Assembly (NCBI RefSeq): GCF_002025665.1
Contig: NZ_CP018786.1
Coordinates: 1,860,001 to 1,924,000, forward strand
Length of the DNA stretch: 64,000 nt
Origin: Chryseobacterium indologenes
Lineage (GTDB): Bacteria > Bacteroidota > Bacteroidia > Flavobacteriales > Weeksellaceae
Direction of reading: 5' to 3'
Shown: piece by piece, positions 4,518 to 62,635 of the stretch
Position numbering within the stretch: position 1 is the first letter of the stretch
How the letters are laid out: each line of letters starts with the position of its first letter
Translations under genes and position numbers: made by a program
Notes under the pieces: generated by a model
What the model saw: the letters and a program-made list of their open reading frames with translations, nothing else
Database searches by the model: none
What the model was told of the DNA's origin: nothing

Positions 4518-4525
4518 TATCTTTG
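4518..4525 (+). promoter_or_regulatory. Bacteroidota -7-type box upstream of Crp/Fnr gene
   Basis: TATCTTTG matches TAnnTTTG and lies 22 bp before the ATG at 4548. No clear TTTG -33 box is present, so this is only a candidate. Confidence 0.35.
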
Positions 4526-4547: not shown

Positions 4548-5066
4548 ATGGTTGAAAAATTGCTTCAGAGTGGAATCCATTGGGAAAAGAAAGAATTCAG
4601 ACGAAACGAATTCCTGAAGATTTCAGGCAGTGTAGACACCTATATTTATTTTATTGAAAACGGAAGCGTTCGGATCTTTATGATGGATGAACATGAAGAA
4701 AGAATTATTCGTTTTGGATATACCGGAAATATTATTGTAAGCCTGGATTCCTTTTTATCGGGAAAGCCTTCTGATCTTTATATTCAGGCAATTAAAAAAA
4801 CAACGGTAGGAATGGCCTCGAAAAAGGATTTCTATACGTTTGTGCAATCGGATGAAGAACATATGAAATTCTGGATGAATGTTCTGGAAGATCTCGTATT
4901 GCAGCAGCTTGAAAGAGAAAAAGACTTGCTGATCAATGCTCCCGGTGAACGCTTTGAAAGAGTTTTAAAACGAAGTCCGAAACTGTTTCAGGAAGTTCCC
5001 AATAAATACATCGCCAATTATCTTAGAATGTCGCCGGAAACTTTGTCAAGACTTAAAAAATCTTGA
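4548..5066 (+). CDS. Crp/Fnr family transcriptional regulator (short form)
   Basis: The 172-residue protein has a cyclic-nucleotide-binding-type beta barrel (IYFIENGSVRIFMMDE near residues 33-48) and a compact C-terminal HTH that stops just after the recognition helix MSPETLSRL. The helix has Pro where E. coli CRP has Arg180 but keeps the E..SR pattern of FNR, which reads TTGA half-sites. No Fe-S cysteine cluster is present, so it is not an FNR-type oxygen sensor. A perfect AAATCTTGA dyad overlaps its stop codon, ahead of the DinB/Ogt/Ada genes, so control of that block is the natural inference. It diverges from the envelope operon at 4478. Confidence 0.85.
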   Translation: MVEKLLQSGIHWEKKEFRRNEFLKISGSVDTYIYFIENGSVRIFMMDEHEERIIRFGYTGNIIVSLDSFLSGKPSDLYIQAIKKTTVGMASKKDFYTFVQSDEEHMKFWMNVLEDLVLQQLEREKDLLINAPGERFERVLKRSPKLFQEVPNKYIANYLRMSPETLSRLKKS

Positions 5067-5081
5067 GTTCAGTCAAGATTT
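5058..5081. promoter_or_regulatory. FNR-class dyad operator (TTGA-N6-TCAA)
   Basis: A perfect 9-bp inverted repeat AAATCTTGA-N6-TCAAGATTT overlaps the Crp/Fnr stop codon. Its centre is about 43 bp before the start point implied by the -7-like box CATATTTG (5099-5106), upstream of dinB-like, ogt and ada. There is no T-run, so a terminator is unlikely. Confidence 0.6.
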
Positions 5082-5119
5082 AAGAACATTCAGATCAGCA
5101 TATTTGCATAAAAAACGTA

Positions 5120-5665
5120 ATGAAAATTTCAACCGCAGAATTACTGAACGAATTAAGAAATAGAACTGAAGAACATTTACAGTTTGCTGAAATGTTGTCT
5201 TTAAAGACGGAACATGATCTGAATTTCAGAACTTCAACAGAAAGCTGGAGTACATTGGAATGTCTGGAACATCTTATCCGCTATGGAGATTTTTATATTC
5301 CTGAAATTAGCCGTATTATTTCTTCTGCCAATAAGTCTCCACAATCTTATTTTAAACCCGGAATTCTTGGAAATTATTTTGCTAAAAGCATGCTTCCCAA
5401 ACAGAATCTAAATACAATGAAAACACTTAAAGCAATGAATCCTATCCACAGCAATCTGGATAAAAGTGTAGTGGATACGTTCATTAACTATCAAGGAAAA
5501 TTACTTGAGTTATTGGAAGAAGCACAATATATTGACTTAGAAAAGACAAAAACAAGTATAAGCATTTCAAAACTAATCAAACTAAAGCTTGGAGATACCT
5601 TTCGTTTTGTTATTTATCATAATGCGAGACATGTTGAACAGATAAAAAGAATTTTAACGAATTAA
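5120..5665 (+). CDS. DinB family protein
   Basis: The 181-residue protein has the four-helix DinB/YfiT-like architecture. A His in LECLEHLIRY (about residue 53) and the YHNARHVEQI motif near the C-terminus could supply the metal-binding His triad of the family. DinB_2 proteins are often damage-inducible metal-dependent proteins or thiol transferases of uncertain substrate. The gene lies between the Crp/Fnr regulator and the methyltransferase genes in one orientation with short gaps, so a role in the alkylation or stress response is inferred from context. Confidence 0.85.
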   Translation: MKISTAELLNELRNRTEEHLQFAEMLSLKTEHDLNFRTSTESWSTLECLEHLIRYGDFYIPEISRIISSANKSPQSYFKPGILGNYFAKSMLPKQNLNTMKTLKAMNPIHSNLDKSVVDTFINYQGKLLELLEEAQYIDLEKTKTSISISKLIKLKLGDTFRFVIYHNARHVEQIKRILTN

Positions 5666-5704
5666 AAACAAATTATGATTTCCAAAAAGCTTAATTTTAA
5701 ACTA

Positions 5705-6217
5705 ATGGAAATTATACACCAAAAAAACATATCAACCCCATTGGGAGAAATGATTGCCTGTACCGTAGATCAGGGGATTTGTCTGCTGGAATTTACAGAC
5801 CGGAAAAATATTGAAAAACAACTGAAGGCTTTATCAAAGGTTCTGAATGCAGAAATTGTAGAAAAAGAACATCCTCATTTTGTTCAGCTTGAAAAAGAAC
5901 TGAAAGAATATTTTGGCGGACAAAGAAACCATTTTGAAGTTCCATTGTTTACTACCGGAACTGAGTTTCAGGAAAAAGTGTGGCAACTTCTCCGTGAAAT
6001 TCCGATGGGAGAAATCAGAACTTATAAACAGCAGTCAGAAATATTAGGAAATCCCAAGGCGATACGTGCCGTAGGAACAGCCAACGGAATCAATAAAATT
6101 GCTATTTTAATTCCCTGCCATCGTGTGATTGGTTCAAACGGTGAGTTGGTTGGATATGCAGGTGGTATCTGGAGAAAACAAAAACTGCTTGAGCTTGAAA
6201 AGGCAATTCTATTTTAA
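5705..6217 (+). CDS. ogt: Methylated-DNA--protein-cysteine methyltransferase
   Basis: The 170-residue suicide enzyme removes the alkyl group from O6-alkylguanine in DNA. The acceptor Cys lies in PCHRV at residue 138, preceded by the RAVGTANG helix and followed by the family end GYAGGIWRKQKLLELE. The ATG at 5705 gives the usual start MEIIH; an in-frame ATG at 5675 would add ten residues and leave a 9-bp gap to the DinB gene. The last 18 residues are identical to the C-terminus of Ada at 7078-8124, but synonymous sites differ, so this is an older paralogue and not a recent copy. Confidence 0.93.
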   Translation: MEIIHQKNISTPLGEMIACTVDQGICLLEFTDRKNIEKQLKALSKVLNAEIVEKEHPHFVQLEKELKEYFGGQRNHFEVPLFTTGTEFQEKVWQLLREIPMGEIRTYKQQSEILGNPKAIRAVGTANGINKIAILIPCHRVIGSNGELVGYAGGIWRKQKLLELEKAILF

Positions 6218-6313
6218 AAACCGAAGTTCGGATTCAGAGAATTATAAAAAATAGGTGTTCATTTTTCGGTTGTAGAGCAGGCAGTAATCTTTCTACTTTT
6301 GAATAAAAAAAAT

Positions 6314-7081
6314 ATGATCAGTTTTAAACAGTTACATCATGATGAATATCCATTAATATTGGGTAATGTATGGAATGTAGAAAGCGCAAAGGCATACGAA
6401 AAGCAGGGGTGTAAAGCGTTAGCAACCTCAAGTTCGGCAGTCGCATTGAGTTTAGGATATGAAGATGGAGAACAGATGACCTTTGAAGAATATTTTTATA
6501 TCATTAAGAGGATCAGAACCTCCGTTTCAATCCCTCTGTCGGTAGATCTGGAATCCGGATATGGTCTTGAAAATGATACGGTAGTTTCGAATATCATGAA
6601 ACTTATAGAAATTGGAGTATCGGGAATTAATATTGAAGATACAAACGTTATTCACGGAATACGAAAACTGCTAAAAAGAGATGTCTTCTATGAAAGATTA
6701 AAAGATGTTTTTATCAAATTAGGAGAAAACAGAGGTAAAATATTTATCAATGTACGGACAGACCCTTTTTTACTGAATATTGAAAATGCATTGGAAGAAA
6801 CTTTAGAGAGAATTAAACTGTTTGAAGAACTTGATGCTGATGGTGTTTTCGTTCCGGGGATGACAGCTGAAAATGACATCAGAACGATTACAGAAGCAAC
6901 CTTTCTTCCTGTGAATGTTATGGCGCTGCCTGATTTACCGGATTTTGATATGCTTAAAACATTAGGTGTAAAAAGAGTTACTTCAGGTGCTTTTATGTAC
7001 AGACACATCTACAGTGAGCTTGAAAAAGCAAGTCAGAAAATTACAAATACAAGAAGTTTTTCACCTCTTTTTATTGAATGA
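6314..7081 (+). CDS. Isocitrate lyase/PEP mutase family protein
   Basis: The 255-residue TIM-barrel protein of the ICL/PEPM superfamily carries the metal-site segment VDLESGYG, GVSGINIEDT and NVRTDPFLL. The KKCGH signature of true isocitrate lyase is absent, so the reaction is probably C-C or P-C bond cleavage or formation on a small 2-oxo acid, with substrate unknown. The ATG at 6314 is preferred over an in-frame TTG at 6299. Its stop codon overlaps the ada start by 4 bp (ATGA), so it is translationally coupled to ada. A promoter-like TACTTTTG (6294-6301) sits directly in front of the ATG. Confidence 0.85.
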   Translation: MISFKQLHHDEYPLILGNVWNVESAKAYEKQGCKALATSSSAVALSLGYEDGEQMTFEEYFYIIKRIRTSVSIPLSVDLESGYGLENDTVVSNIMKLIEIGVSGINIEDTNVIHGIRKLLKRDVFYERLKDVFIKLGENRGKIFINVRTDPFLLNIENALEETLERIKLFEELDADGVFVPGMTAENDIRTITEATFLPVNVMALPDLPDFDMLKTLGVKRVTSGAFMYRHIYSELEKASQKITNTRSFSPLFIE

Positions 7082-8124
7082 TGGAACTTACAGAAAAAAT
7101 CATGTATGAGGCATCTTATACCAAAGATGTTTCATTTGAAGGGATATTCTGGATGGGCGTAAAAACCACAGGAATATTCTGCAGACCGACCTGTACCGCA
7201 AGGAAACCGAAATTTGAAAATGTAGAATTTTTTTCCAATACCAAAGATGCGATGCTCAAAGGGTATCGTCCTTGTAAAGTGTGCCGGCCTTTGGAAAATC
7301 TTAATGCTACACCTTCATATATCAAAAAGTTACTGAAAGAAATTGCCGATGATCCTATATTAAAGCTTAAAGATTACGATCTTGTAAAAAGAGGATTGGA
7401 ACCCGCAACAGTACGCAGATGGTTTCTGAAACACCATGGAATTACGTTTCATGCTTTCCAGAGAATGTCAAAACTCAATACTGCCTTTAAAAAGCTTCAA
7501 AATGGAGAATCAGTTACAGAAGTAGCATTTGACACAGGATATGAAAGTCTGAGCGGTTTTAATGAGAGTTTTAAAAATATTTTTGGCGTATCACCTAAGA
7601 ATAATACCATGGAAAAAATCATTGATCTGAAGAGAATAGAAACGATGCTGGGAACCATGATAGCCTGTGCCGATGAACATGGAATCTGCCTTCTTGAATT
7701 TTCCGACAGAAAAGCGCTTCCCACAGAATTGAAGAGTATTGCGAACTATTTTAAAGCAAATATTATTCAGGGAGATAATCCTCATTTTGTTACTCTGGAA
7801 GAAGAATTGAAAGAGTATTTCGAAGGAAAAAGAGCCATATTTACAGTTCCTCTTTCCCCTGTAGGAACAGCTTTCCAGAAAGAAGTCTGGAATATTCTTC
7901 AGGAAATTCCTTACGGTGCAACAAGAAGTTATCAGGAACAGGCAGATATTCTGGGAAACCCTAAATCCGTAAGAGCTGTAGCCAATGCTAATGGTCTGAA
8001 TAAGATATCCATTATAATTCCTTGTCATCGTGTAATTGGCAGCAACGGACAATTAACAGGCTATGGAGGAGGAATCTGGAGAAAGCAAAAATTACTGGAA
8101 CTGGAAAAGGCTATTTTGTTTTAG
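7078..8124 (+). CDS. ada: Bifunctional Ada: methyl-DNA sensor/AraC regulator and O6-methylguanine methyltransferase
   Basis: The 348-residue protein has three parts. The N-terminal zinc domain has Cys35, Cys39, Cys66 and Cys69; the first is the likely methylphosphotriester acceptor. An AraC-type HTH lies near residues 100-170 (TVRRWFLKHHGITFHAFQRM, then AFDTGYESLSGFNESFKNIFG). The C-terminal methyltransferase domain has PCHRV with acceptor Cys316. In characterised Ada proteins, methylation of the N-terminal Cys turns the protein into an activator of its own repair genes. Here it closes a block with ogt and the coupled ICL/PEPM gene, so those are probable targets. Start is ATG at 7078, or the next codon at 7081. 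Confidence 0.95.
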   Translation: MMELTEKIMYEASYTKDVSFEGIFWMGVKTTGIFCRPTCTARKPKFENVEFFSNTKDAMLKGYRPCKVCRPLENLNATPSYIKKLLKEIADDPILKLKDYDLVKRGLEPATVRRWFLKHHGITFHAFQRMSKLNTAFKKLQNGESVTEVAFDTGYESLSGFNESFKNIFGVSPKNNTMEKIIDLKRIETMLGTMIACADEHGICLLEFSDRKALPTELKSIANYFKANIIQGDNPHFVTLEEELKEYFEGKRAIFTVPLSPVGTAFQKEVWNILQEIPYGATRSYQEQADILGNPKSVRAVANANGLNKISIIIPCHRVIGSNGQLTGYGGGIWRKQKLLELEKAILF

Positions 8125-61581: not shown

Positions 61582-62145
61582 ATGATGCAACAGCTAAGAA
61601 CACACATCGAAAAAATAGTTCCTCTTAACGATGATGAATTTGAATTCATATCATCATGTTTTACCTATAAAAAATATAAAAAGCATCAGTTTTTAGTACA
61701 GGAAGGAGAAGCTGTTCCTTACAACTATTTTGTCTTGAAAGGTCTGTTAAAATTGGTTTATGCTGACGAAACCGGAAAAGAACATATTATAGGATTTGCT
61801 ATGGAAGATTGGTGGGAAACAGATTTTCCGGCTTATTATCAGCAAACTGCAGCAACAATGTCTTTGGAATGCATTGAAGAGACAGAAGTATTATGCATTA
61901 AGCTGGATGATTATAAAAAACTCTGTGCACAGCTTCCGAAACTGGAACATTTCTTTCTTGAAAAAGCTTATATGGGATTTATTACCGCTCAGCAGCGGAC
62001 TATTTCCATGATGACAACCGGAATAAAGGAACGGTATCAGCAGCTTTTGAAAAAATATCCTTCGTTGGTTCAGCGGGTTCCAAAATCTCTTTTAGCAGCT
62101 TATTTAGGAGTCTCAAGAGAGACCTTAAGCCGCCTGTCACTATAA
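61582..62145 (+). CDS. Crp/Fnr family transcriptional regulator (short form)
   Basis: The 187-residue protein has the cNMP-binding-type barrel (VQEGEAVPYNYFVLKGLLKLVYADETGKEHIIGF near residues 34-67) and a compact HTH ending in LGVSRETLSRLSL at the C-terminus. The recognition helix RETLSR keeps Arg180, Glu181 and Arg185 of E. coli CRP, which read GTGA half-sites. Two GTGACNNNGATCAC sites start 5 bp after its stop codon, in front of the RidA and SDR genes, so these are the likely targets. It follows the TlpA-type gene by 38 bp. Confidence 0.88.
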   Translation: MMQQLRTHIEKIVPLNDDEFEFISSCFTYKKYKKHQFLVQEGEAVPYNYFVLKGLLKLVYADETGKEHIIGFAMEDWWETDFPAYYQQTAATMSLECIEETEVLCIKLDDYKKLCAQLPKLEHFFLEKAYMGFITAQQRTISMMTTGIKERYQQLLKKYPSLVQRVPKSLLAAYLGVSRETLSRLSL

Positions 62146-62148
62146 AAT

Positions 62149-62187
62149 TGTGACGATGATCACAGCATAATCGTGACTCTGATCACC
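62149..62187. promoter_or_regulatory. Doubled CRP-type operator
   Basis: TGTGA-N6-TCACA (62149-62164) and GTGA-N6-TCAC (62173-62186), both of form GTGACNNNGATCAC and 23 bp apart centre to centre, between the Crp/Fnr stop codon and the RidA gene. Confidence 0.65.
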
Positions 62188-62245: not shown

Positions 62246-62635
62246 ATGGAAAAAAGAACCATTAATCCATGGAAATGGCAGGAAGAGAGAAGCTATTCTC
62301 AGGCTGTAGAAGTAAAAAATGTTGAAAGTACTTTATACTGCTCCGGACAGGCAGCTATTGATCCTGATGGAATATCCAGTACTCATGATATGAAATCGCA
62401 ACTGGAACAGGCTATTGCCAATCTGGAAGAAGTGATCTATTCAGCAGGATATGAATGTGGAAATATAGTAAGATTAAATATCTATACAACTTCTACTGAA
62501 GAGCTCTGGCCTCACTTTCCCATTCTTCAGGAGTGGATTGCAAGGCATAAGCTTCAACAGGCCGTAACAATGCTTGAAGTAAAAAGTTTGTTTGAAACTT
62601 TAAAGGTGGAACTTGAAGCTACAGCCGTAAAATAA
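62246..62635 (+). CDS. RidA family protein
   Basis: The 129-residue trimeric-type protein contains YCSGQAAIDPDG, the conserved region of the YjgF/RidA ligand pocket, and GNIVRLNIYTT with the conserved catalytic Arg. RidA hydrolyses reactive enamine/imine intermediates made by PLP enzymes. The N-terminus TINPWKWQEERSYSQAVEV is longer than E. coli RidA and typical of a side branch, so the substrate may differ. It is preceded by two CRP-type sites. Confidence 0.9.
   Translation: MEKRTINPWKWQEERSYSQAVEVKNVESTLYCSGQAAIDPDGISSTHDMKSQLEQAIANLEEVIYSAGYECGNIVRLNIYTTSTEELWPHFPILQEWIARHKLQQAVTMLEVKSLFETLKVELEATAVK

Follow-up and report, generated by a model that had tools for sequence, protein, structure and literature searches.

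A conserved FNR-type dyad overlapping the stop codon of a Crp/Fnr-family gene, probable operator of a downstream DinB-fold gene in Chryseobacterium indologenes and its relatives

Genes and features of the locus

The window considered here, i.e., the whole 64,000-nucleotide stretch of Chryseobacterium indologenes DNA that was analysed, contains a gene for a Crp/Fnr-family regulator followed on the same strand by genes for a DinB-fold protein, for Ogt, for an isocitrate lyase/PEP mutase-family protein (icl) and for Ada (Table 1). The regulator has 172 residues and an N-terminal cyclic-nucleotide-binding-like beta roll (Pfam cNMP_binding, 35.6 bits for a cut-off of 27.5). Its AlphaFold model (pLDDT 91.9) matches the structures of CRP and FNR along its whole length, P. 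aeruginosa Vfr (7ff8) being the best Foldseek match and A. fischeri FNR being among the matching folds. As none of the Pfam HTH models reached its threshold on this protein, the assignment of a C-terminal helix-turn-helix rests on the fold, in which helices span residues 152-158 and 163-171; the chain terminates in SPETLSRLKKS, with the recognition helix PETLSR as its last element. The NCBIfam CRP equivalog model gives the regulator 23.2 bits, for a cut-off of 266.

In the oxygen sensor FNR, cysteines hold a [4Fe-4S] cluster. The regulator contains no cysteine, and none is invariant in sets of 11 and 23 relatives, so that signal sensing by an iron-sulfur cluster, as in FNR, is excluded for it; judged from the amino acid sequence, neither a cysteine-held cluster nor a cysteine redox switch can operate in this protein.

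Table 1. Positions of the genes and putative regulatory elements within the window
Feature	Position	Strand	Basis or comment
-7 box TATCTTTG, consensus; regulator's own probable promoter	4518-4525	+	sequence
Crp/Fnr-family regulator, 172 aa	4548-5066	+	ORF; Pfam cNMP_binding; AlphaFold model
Putative operator, dyad AAATCTTGA-N6-TCAAGATTT	5058-5081	.	left half overlaps the regulator stop codon
TGA stop codon of the regulator	5064-5066	+	within the left half-site; ends the 172-residue ORF
-7 box CATATTTG of the dinB promoter	5099-5106	+	lacks the first T of TAnnTTTG; TTTG 33 bp from dyad centre
DinB/STL-fold protein (dinB), conserved target	5120-5665	+	Pfam DinB_2; invariant histidines; structure matches
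ogt, probably co-transcribed behind dinB in this clade	5675-6217	+	Pfam/NCBIfam
Conserved element TGTTCATTTTTCGGTTG, separate icl-ada promoter	6256-6272	+	22 of 22 aligned loci
-7 box TACTTTTG of icl-ada, consensus	6294-6301	+	
icl, isocitrate lyase/PEP mutase family	6314-7081	+	Pfam PEP_mutase
ada: metal-binding, AraC-type HTH and methyltransferase domains	7078-8124	+	Pfam/NCBIfam
Second Crp/Fnr module, regulator with helix RETLSR (L157)	61582-62145		module extends to 62187
Tandem dyads TGTGACGATGATCACA and CGTGACTCTGATCACC	62149-62164 and 62172-62187		
RidA-type (L-PSP family) gene after the tandem dyads	62246-62635		ORF

The dyad and its expectation by chance

The last codons of the regulator gene run into the dyad AAATCTTGA-GTTCAG-TCAAGATTT, the two arms of which match without a mismatch, just as the initial annotation had reported for this overlap with the stop codon. 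The E. coli FNR site is TTGAT-N4-ATCAA. The features of FNR-type DNA recognition that had been pointed out, i.e., TTGA half-sites with N6 between the cores, an E..SR helix and a position in front of the promoter of the next gene, are all supported by the sequence. Perfection alone is weak evidence of function, since the window holds seven dyads with perfect 9-bp arms around six spacer bases, where order-1 simulations predict 0.47 per 64 kb (at least one was present in 24 of 60 simulated windows). It is hence for its conservation, and not for its symmetry, that we consider the dyad functional.

Throughout the genome (5.31 Mb), the exact pattern occurs once, three further places match it with two mismatches and, when up to three mismatches are allowed, 19 places are found versus 11 for the reversed control. 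A genome-wide regulon was thus rejected, there being no second exact site and the matches with two to three mismatches exceeding the control only modestly. A symmetric relative of the dyad, AAATCCTGATAATCATCAGGATTT, is present at C1:3994453-3994476 (L094). Autoregulation through an upstream copy was likewise rejected, since in none of 90 loci of the genus do the 200 bp preceding the regulator contain TTGA-N6-TCAA.

Conservation of the site, its spacing and its partner gene

A search of 173 genomes of the genus provided 90 orthologue loci, our own included, in which the regulator is 62-100% identical; four further places in the genus, namely the interrupted genes L134, L135 and L136 and the distant homologue L131, were kept apart. 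The initial annotation had named related genomes as a test of its dyad, and TTGA-N6-TCAA is retained in all 90 loci, with a left arm reading AAATCTTGA in 88 and a right arm reading TCAAGATTT in 60 and TCAATATTT in 22. The regulator ends with TGA in 90/90 loci, versus 6 of the 52 long ATG ORFs of the window. In 89 of the 90, the dyad centre stands 33 bp before the TTTG of the dinB -7 box and this TTTG starts 36 bases past the regulator stop; the stretch separating dyad and box is of fixed length, yet several of its bases (20-25 and 29-31 past the stop) vary almost at random. The gene downstream of the regulator is dinB in every one of these loci, at 52-58 bp in 87 and at 121-125 bp in three. 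Dyad and spacing still exist beside the interrupted genes L134 and L136; L135 has no dyad close to its premature stop.

Beyond the genus, a family search (296 genomes, the genus included) added loci L110-L133, 23 from other genera and L131 from the same genus, with the dyad in 24/24 and a spacing of exactly 33 in 22/24. A scan of named genomes, whose peptide patterns include the helix motif and which hence selects this regulator subfamily, was restricted to the best 80 of 510 relatives, the nearest of which, with a regulator up to 95% identical, are Chryseobacterium; 54 loci were read, 48 of them new and non-duplicate, from Flavobacterium, Polaribacter, Tenacibaculum, Sphingobacterium, Parapedobacter, Chitinophaga, Cyclobacterium, Fulvivirga, Saprospiraceae and others. 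Among these 48 distant loci (from the best 80 of 510), half-sites are TTGA/TCAA in 33, TTAA/TCAA in 14, all with TAA as stop codon, and neither in one; the full TTGATNNNNATCAA occurs in 22 and TTTG lies exactly 33 bp from the dyad centre in 43. A dinB gene is found within 1.5 kb downstream in 53 of the 54 loci read (again from the best 80 of 510), the exception, L357, being a contig end.

In L130 and L378, the dyad sits inside the reading frame (its centre 14 bp before the end of the stop codon in L130 and 50 bp before it in L378) with the 33-bp spacing to the box kept, which argues that the dyad is a DNA site. In L374, it is shifted by about 33 bp and follows the stop codon, its distance to the box being shorter by one base. 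Dyad and box remain at the stop codon in L118, L119, L121 and L122, where dinB starts 217-291 bp downstream. In L131 and L132 (about 44% identity), dinB is not the next gene, yet the dyad persists with its spacing. L369 has no dyad, and its dinB is 0.9 kb away. Nearly every locus that was read, at identities as low as 40%, thus has the regulator next to the site, L135 and L369 being the exceptions.

Promoter geometry and proposed mechanism

Class II activation geometry is known for CRP, and -41.5 is the class II activator position of both CRP and FNR. In Flavobacterium psychrophilum, the -7 box TAnnTTTG spans -12 to -5 according to PMC9723704. With TTTG counted from -8 on this basis, the 33-bp spacing puts the dyad centre at -41.5, as in a class II Crp/Fnr promoter, and we infer a dinB start point near 5111; the initial estimate of about 43 bp between site and start point agrees with this value. 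The base at -12 of the dinB box is never T in the 90 genus loci (G in 81, C in 9) and is T in only one of 47 distant loci (from the best 80 of 510), whereas the boxes of the regulator and of icl-ada in the window do have the consensus T, a difference which favors activation. Such a weak box is no general feature of these promoters, since T is found at -12 in 26/26 members of the family of the paralog L173.

We consider it highly probable that the dyad is the operator of the adjacent regulator, which would serve as class II activator of the weak dinB promoter, the DinB-fold protein being a likely thiol S-transferase. In the mechanism we propose, a dimer of the 172-residue protein would bind TTGA-N6-TCAA centred at -41.5 and activate the transcription of dinB, probably together with ogt in this clade. 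The regulator would be a dedicated, probably single-target switch with a promoter of its own, the end of its coding sequence, stop codon included, serving at the same time as the left half-site, and the DinB-fold protein, as a thiol S-transferase with bacillithiol as probable thiol here, would dispose of electrophiles.

The DinB-fold protein as probable conserved target

In the DinB-fold protein, His51, His167 and His171 are invariant in 27 sequences, and the AlphaFold model (pLDDT 91.7) predicts a four-helix fold. Such a fold with three histidines that bind a metal is typical of the S-transferase-like (DinB/YfiT) superfamily, to which we assign the protein. The highest structural score was obtained with the M. 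tuberculosis mycothiol S-transferase (PDB 8f5v; Z 13.5, rmsd 3.4 over 141 residues, 13% identity), and B. subtilis YfiT matches as well (1rxq; E 8.8e-4, Z 12.8, 13-14% identity), Z values around 13 being near the level that the comparison tool flags for helical bundles, which are common. By sequence, no solved relative was found, and a 27-row profile yielded only a ribosomal protein (E 0.75). PMC5815605 describes YfiT (BstA) and another seven proteins of this group in B. subtilis as bacillithiol transferases, and according to PMC6282198 N-methyl-bacillithiol is made by a member of the Bacteroidetes; bshC is present in the genome. Taken together, the fold matches, the invariant histidines, bshC and the reported N-methyl-bacillithiol make a low-molecular-weight-thiol S-transferase, with bacillithiol as the thiol in this organism, the most likely function of the modelled protein. 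To judge from the aligned loci, it is this gene, and not alkylation repair, that is the conserved target of the site.

Sister Crp/Fnr regulators

The genome holds 39 cNMP-domain matches. Perfect palindromes are centred 33 bp before TTTG at five of the 37 downstream TTTG sites of these paralogs (the 172-residue regulator, L171, L173, L178 and L179), while other offsets from 15 to 65 yield at most one each. When both strands and the upstream regions are added (363 TTTG), offset 33 still counts five and offsets 20, 26, 37, 44 and 48 count three to four; this loss of enrichment confines the signal to downstream, same-strand sites. The scan is modest on its own, and the orthologue sets were decisive.

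In CRP, Arg reads G; applied to these paralogs, this reading would link the loss of Arg with TTAA. The L171 family (helix PEYLSE) has CTTAA-N6-TTAAG in 30/30 loci. The L173 family (helix ending in LSY) is perfect at 33 in 26/27, the remaining locus lacking TTTG, and has CTTAA-N6-TTAAG in 25 of the 26 scored, with ATTAA in one. In the L168 family (P/A-EFISR; L226 left out of the count), TTGA/TCAA is present at 33 in 29/29, pairing at 4/5 positions in 26 and at 5/5 in three. In all three families, the stop codon is within the left half of the palindrome. The L157 family (L267 left out), whose member in this genome lies at window 61582-62145, is a CRP-like case, with a proximal GTGA dyad in 29/29 and both tandem GTGA-N6-TCAC dyads, 23 bp apart, in 28/29; the distance to TTTG is about 34 bp, outside the strict offset of 33.

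Two other families fit the pattern loosely, perfect palindromes at 33 being found in only 4/30 loci for L178 and in 0/30 for L163. In the L178 family (L382-L411), a TTTTTGCCAAATGGCAAA-like palindrome follows the regulator in many loci, but a TTTG is often missing from where it would be expected. Most loci of the L163 family (L412-L441) combine two elements in a two-turn tandem, namely TTGA-N6-TCAA at the stop codon or close to it and, some 23 bp further on, ATGA-N6-TCAA, which lies 33-34 bp before TTTG; a PRISE-like reductase gene follows L163 in our genome. Pfam families encoded downstream of such regulators include flavodoxin-like reductase, DoxX, short-chain dehydrogenase, PRISE, alpha/beta hydrolase, glyoxalase, YceI and RidA-type (L-PSP) proteins; the first gene after L173 gave no Pfam match. 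As read from these alignments, the architecture of an operator at the stop codon recurs, with other half-sites, at some of the sister genes. The agreement between site class and helix class seen by the initial annotation holds at this locus, where TTGA accompanies E..SR, but is only moderately informative across the genome: among the five paralogs whose helix reads P-E-x-x-S-R, a TTGA dyad is present at the stop codon of three and absent from that of two (L153 and L166), and the helix is thus no reliable predictor of the site.

Alternative readings of the site

The initial annotation had proposed that DNA alkylation repair is wired to a Crp/Fnr signal through this dyad, and the gene order gives this view some substance. 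Indeed, ogt follows dinB by 9 bp here and by at most 100 bp in 50 of the 90 genus loci (by 100-1500 bp in 10 others, the first 30 loci covering 1.5 kb past the stop), so that both genes are probably co-transcribed in this clade; icl and/or ada occur 2.3-3.9 kb downstream in seven of the eight loci L110-L117, icl-ada lies upstream of the regulator in seven genus loci (L071-L075, L077 and L079), and alkylating electrophiles are handled by thiol S-transferases as well as by Ogt. However, site and spacing persist in the other 30 genus loci, in seven of which dinB is directly followed by what is left of the C-terminal part of ogt, while 23 show no ogt nearby, and also in the 48 distant loci (from the best 80 of 510), where no ogt was seen in the DNA examined, mostly 3 kb. 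From this comparison, ogt appears to have decayed or been lost while dyad and dinB stayed. The remnants stand beside an intact dyad-dinB unit in L033, L037, L039, L040, L045, L047 and L060. Moreover, TGTTCATTTTTCGGTTG precedes icl in 22/22 loci with an aligned icl start, C or T being allowed at two positions, TAnnTTTG follows it in 21/22 (by reading) and it has a single exact match in the genome; it is probably a control element of icl-ada and perhaps, as a candidate, Ada's own operator. With an invariant element and a -7 box of its own, icl-ada need not depend on the dyad. We therefore find the control of ogt, icl and ada by a Crp/Fnr signal doubtful: the proposed wiring shrinks to a probable co-transcription of ogt in one clade, where the loci portray ogt as a clade-specific rider of the dyad-dinB unit.

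Activation of dinB by the adjacent regulator also has to be weighed against repression from the same site, lifted by a signal. A repressor at this place would leave much the same sequence pattern, since the dyad overlaps the -33 region of the promoter and a steric block needs a nearby site, too. Nevertheless, a -7 box without T at -12 in 90/90 genus loci would be odd for a promoter that only needs blocking, and the exact 33-bp spacing in 43/48 distant loci (from the best 80 of 510) exceeds what blocking requires; we thus regard repression as unlikely. It is quite improbable that the site is bound by a different one among the 39 Crp/Fnr-family members of this genome, even though TTGA-N6-TCAA also accompanies the stop codons of two paralogs: regulator and site travel together as described above, and the palindrome usually differs where another subfamily occupies that place. 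A hairpin at the end of the regulator mRNA, acting as terminator or processing site, was rejected as hardly credible. The dyad does form a perfect 9-bp stem with a 6-nt loop in the minimum-energy fold, but no terminator was called there, and the 81-nt region folds like its shuffles (z -0.75; 41/200 at least as good). Pairing is lost at half-distance 7 in 25 of the 90 genus sequences and in 14 of 24 others, no arm position shows two different Watson-Crick pairs, hence no compensation, and the spacing that is kept is to the promoter and not to the stop codon.

Relation to known systems and outlook

The regulator shares with E. coli FNR the TTGA half-site, the N6 between cores, the E-x-x-S-R helix and the class II position, and differs from it in lacking cysteine, hence any iron-sulfur cluster, as well as in having apparently one dedicated target and an operator fused to its own stop codon. 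Of the 48 distant loci (from the best 80 of 510), 22 share with the FNR site the full TTGATNNNNATCAA. Fold and, by analogy, class II geometry are common to E. coli CRP and Vfr; unlike these, the half-site is TTGA and not TGTGA, the helix begins with P instead of R, and the protein, at 172 residues, ends on its recognition helix. As for the target, it has the fold of BstA/YfiT, and its three invariant histidines are of the type that PMC5815605 names; at the low identity given above, this likeness is known from the predicted fold and the sequence. In literature searches for the arrangement or its parts, no title or abstract among the matches listed describes the arrangement, and the phrasing "crp fnr" apparently misses "Crp/Fnr".

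Beyond this locus, we tentatively advance a broader view, possible though somewhat short of even likelihood: in flavobacteria and other Bacteroidota, the Crp/Fnr fold may have diversified so that a genome contains dozens of switches (39 family members in this one), each dedicated to a local target. Many of them would precede genes for stress response or detoxification. Each would use an individual palindrome located at -41.5 or close to it, whose left half would often include the regulator's stop codon and whose half-site could be read from the helix. If so, R-E..SR would read GTGA, P/A-E..SR would read TTGA and E..S without Arg would read TTAA, and the DinB member would provide an electrophile-responsive, phylum-wide control of thiol conjugation.

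For a regulator subfamily widespread in Bacteroidota, the present analysis predicts which site is bound, which gene is controlled and where the promoter lies, and it suggests that an operator can reside in the last codons of the gene encoding its own regulator. The paralog series, with different helices and half-sites at the same position, can serve as a natural experiment in how Crp/Fnr proteins recognise DNA. Finally, the likely function of the system moves from alkylation repair to thiol-dependent detoxification.
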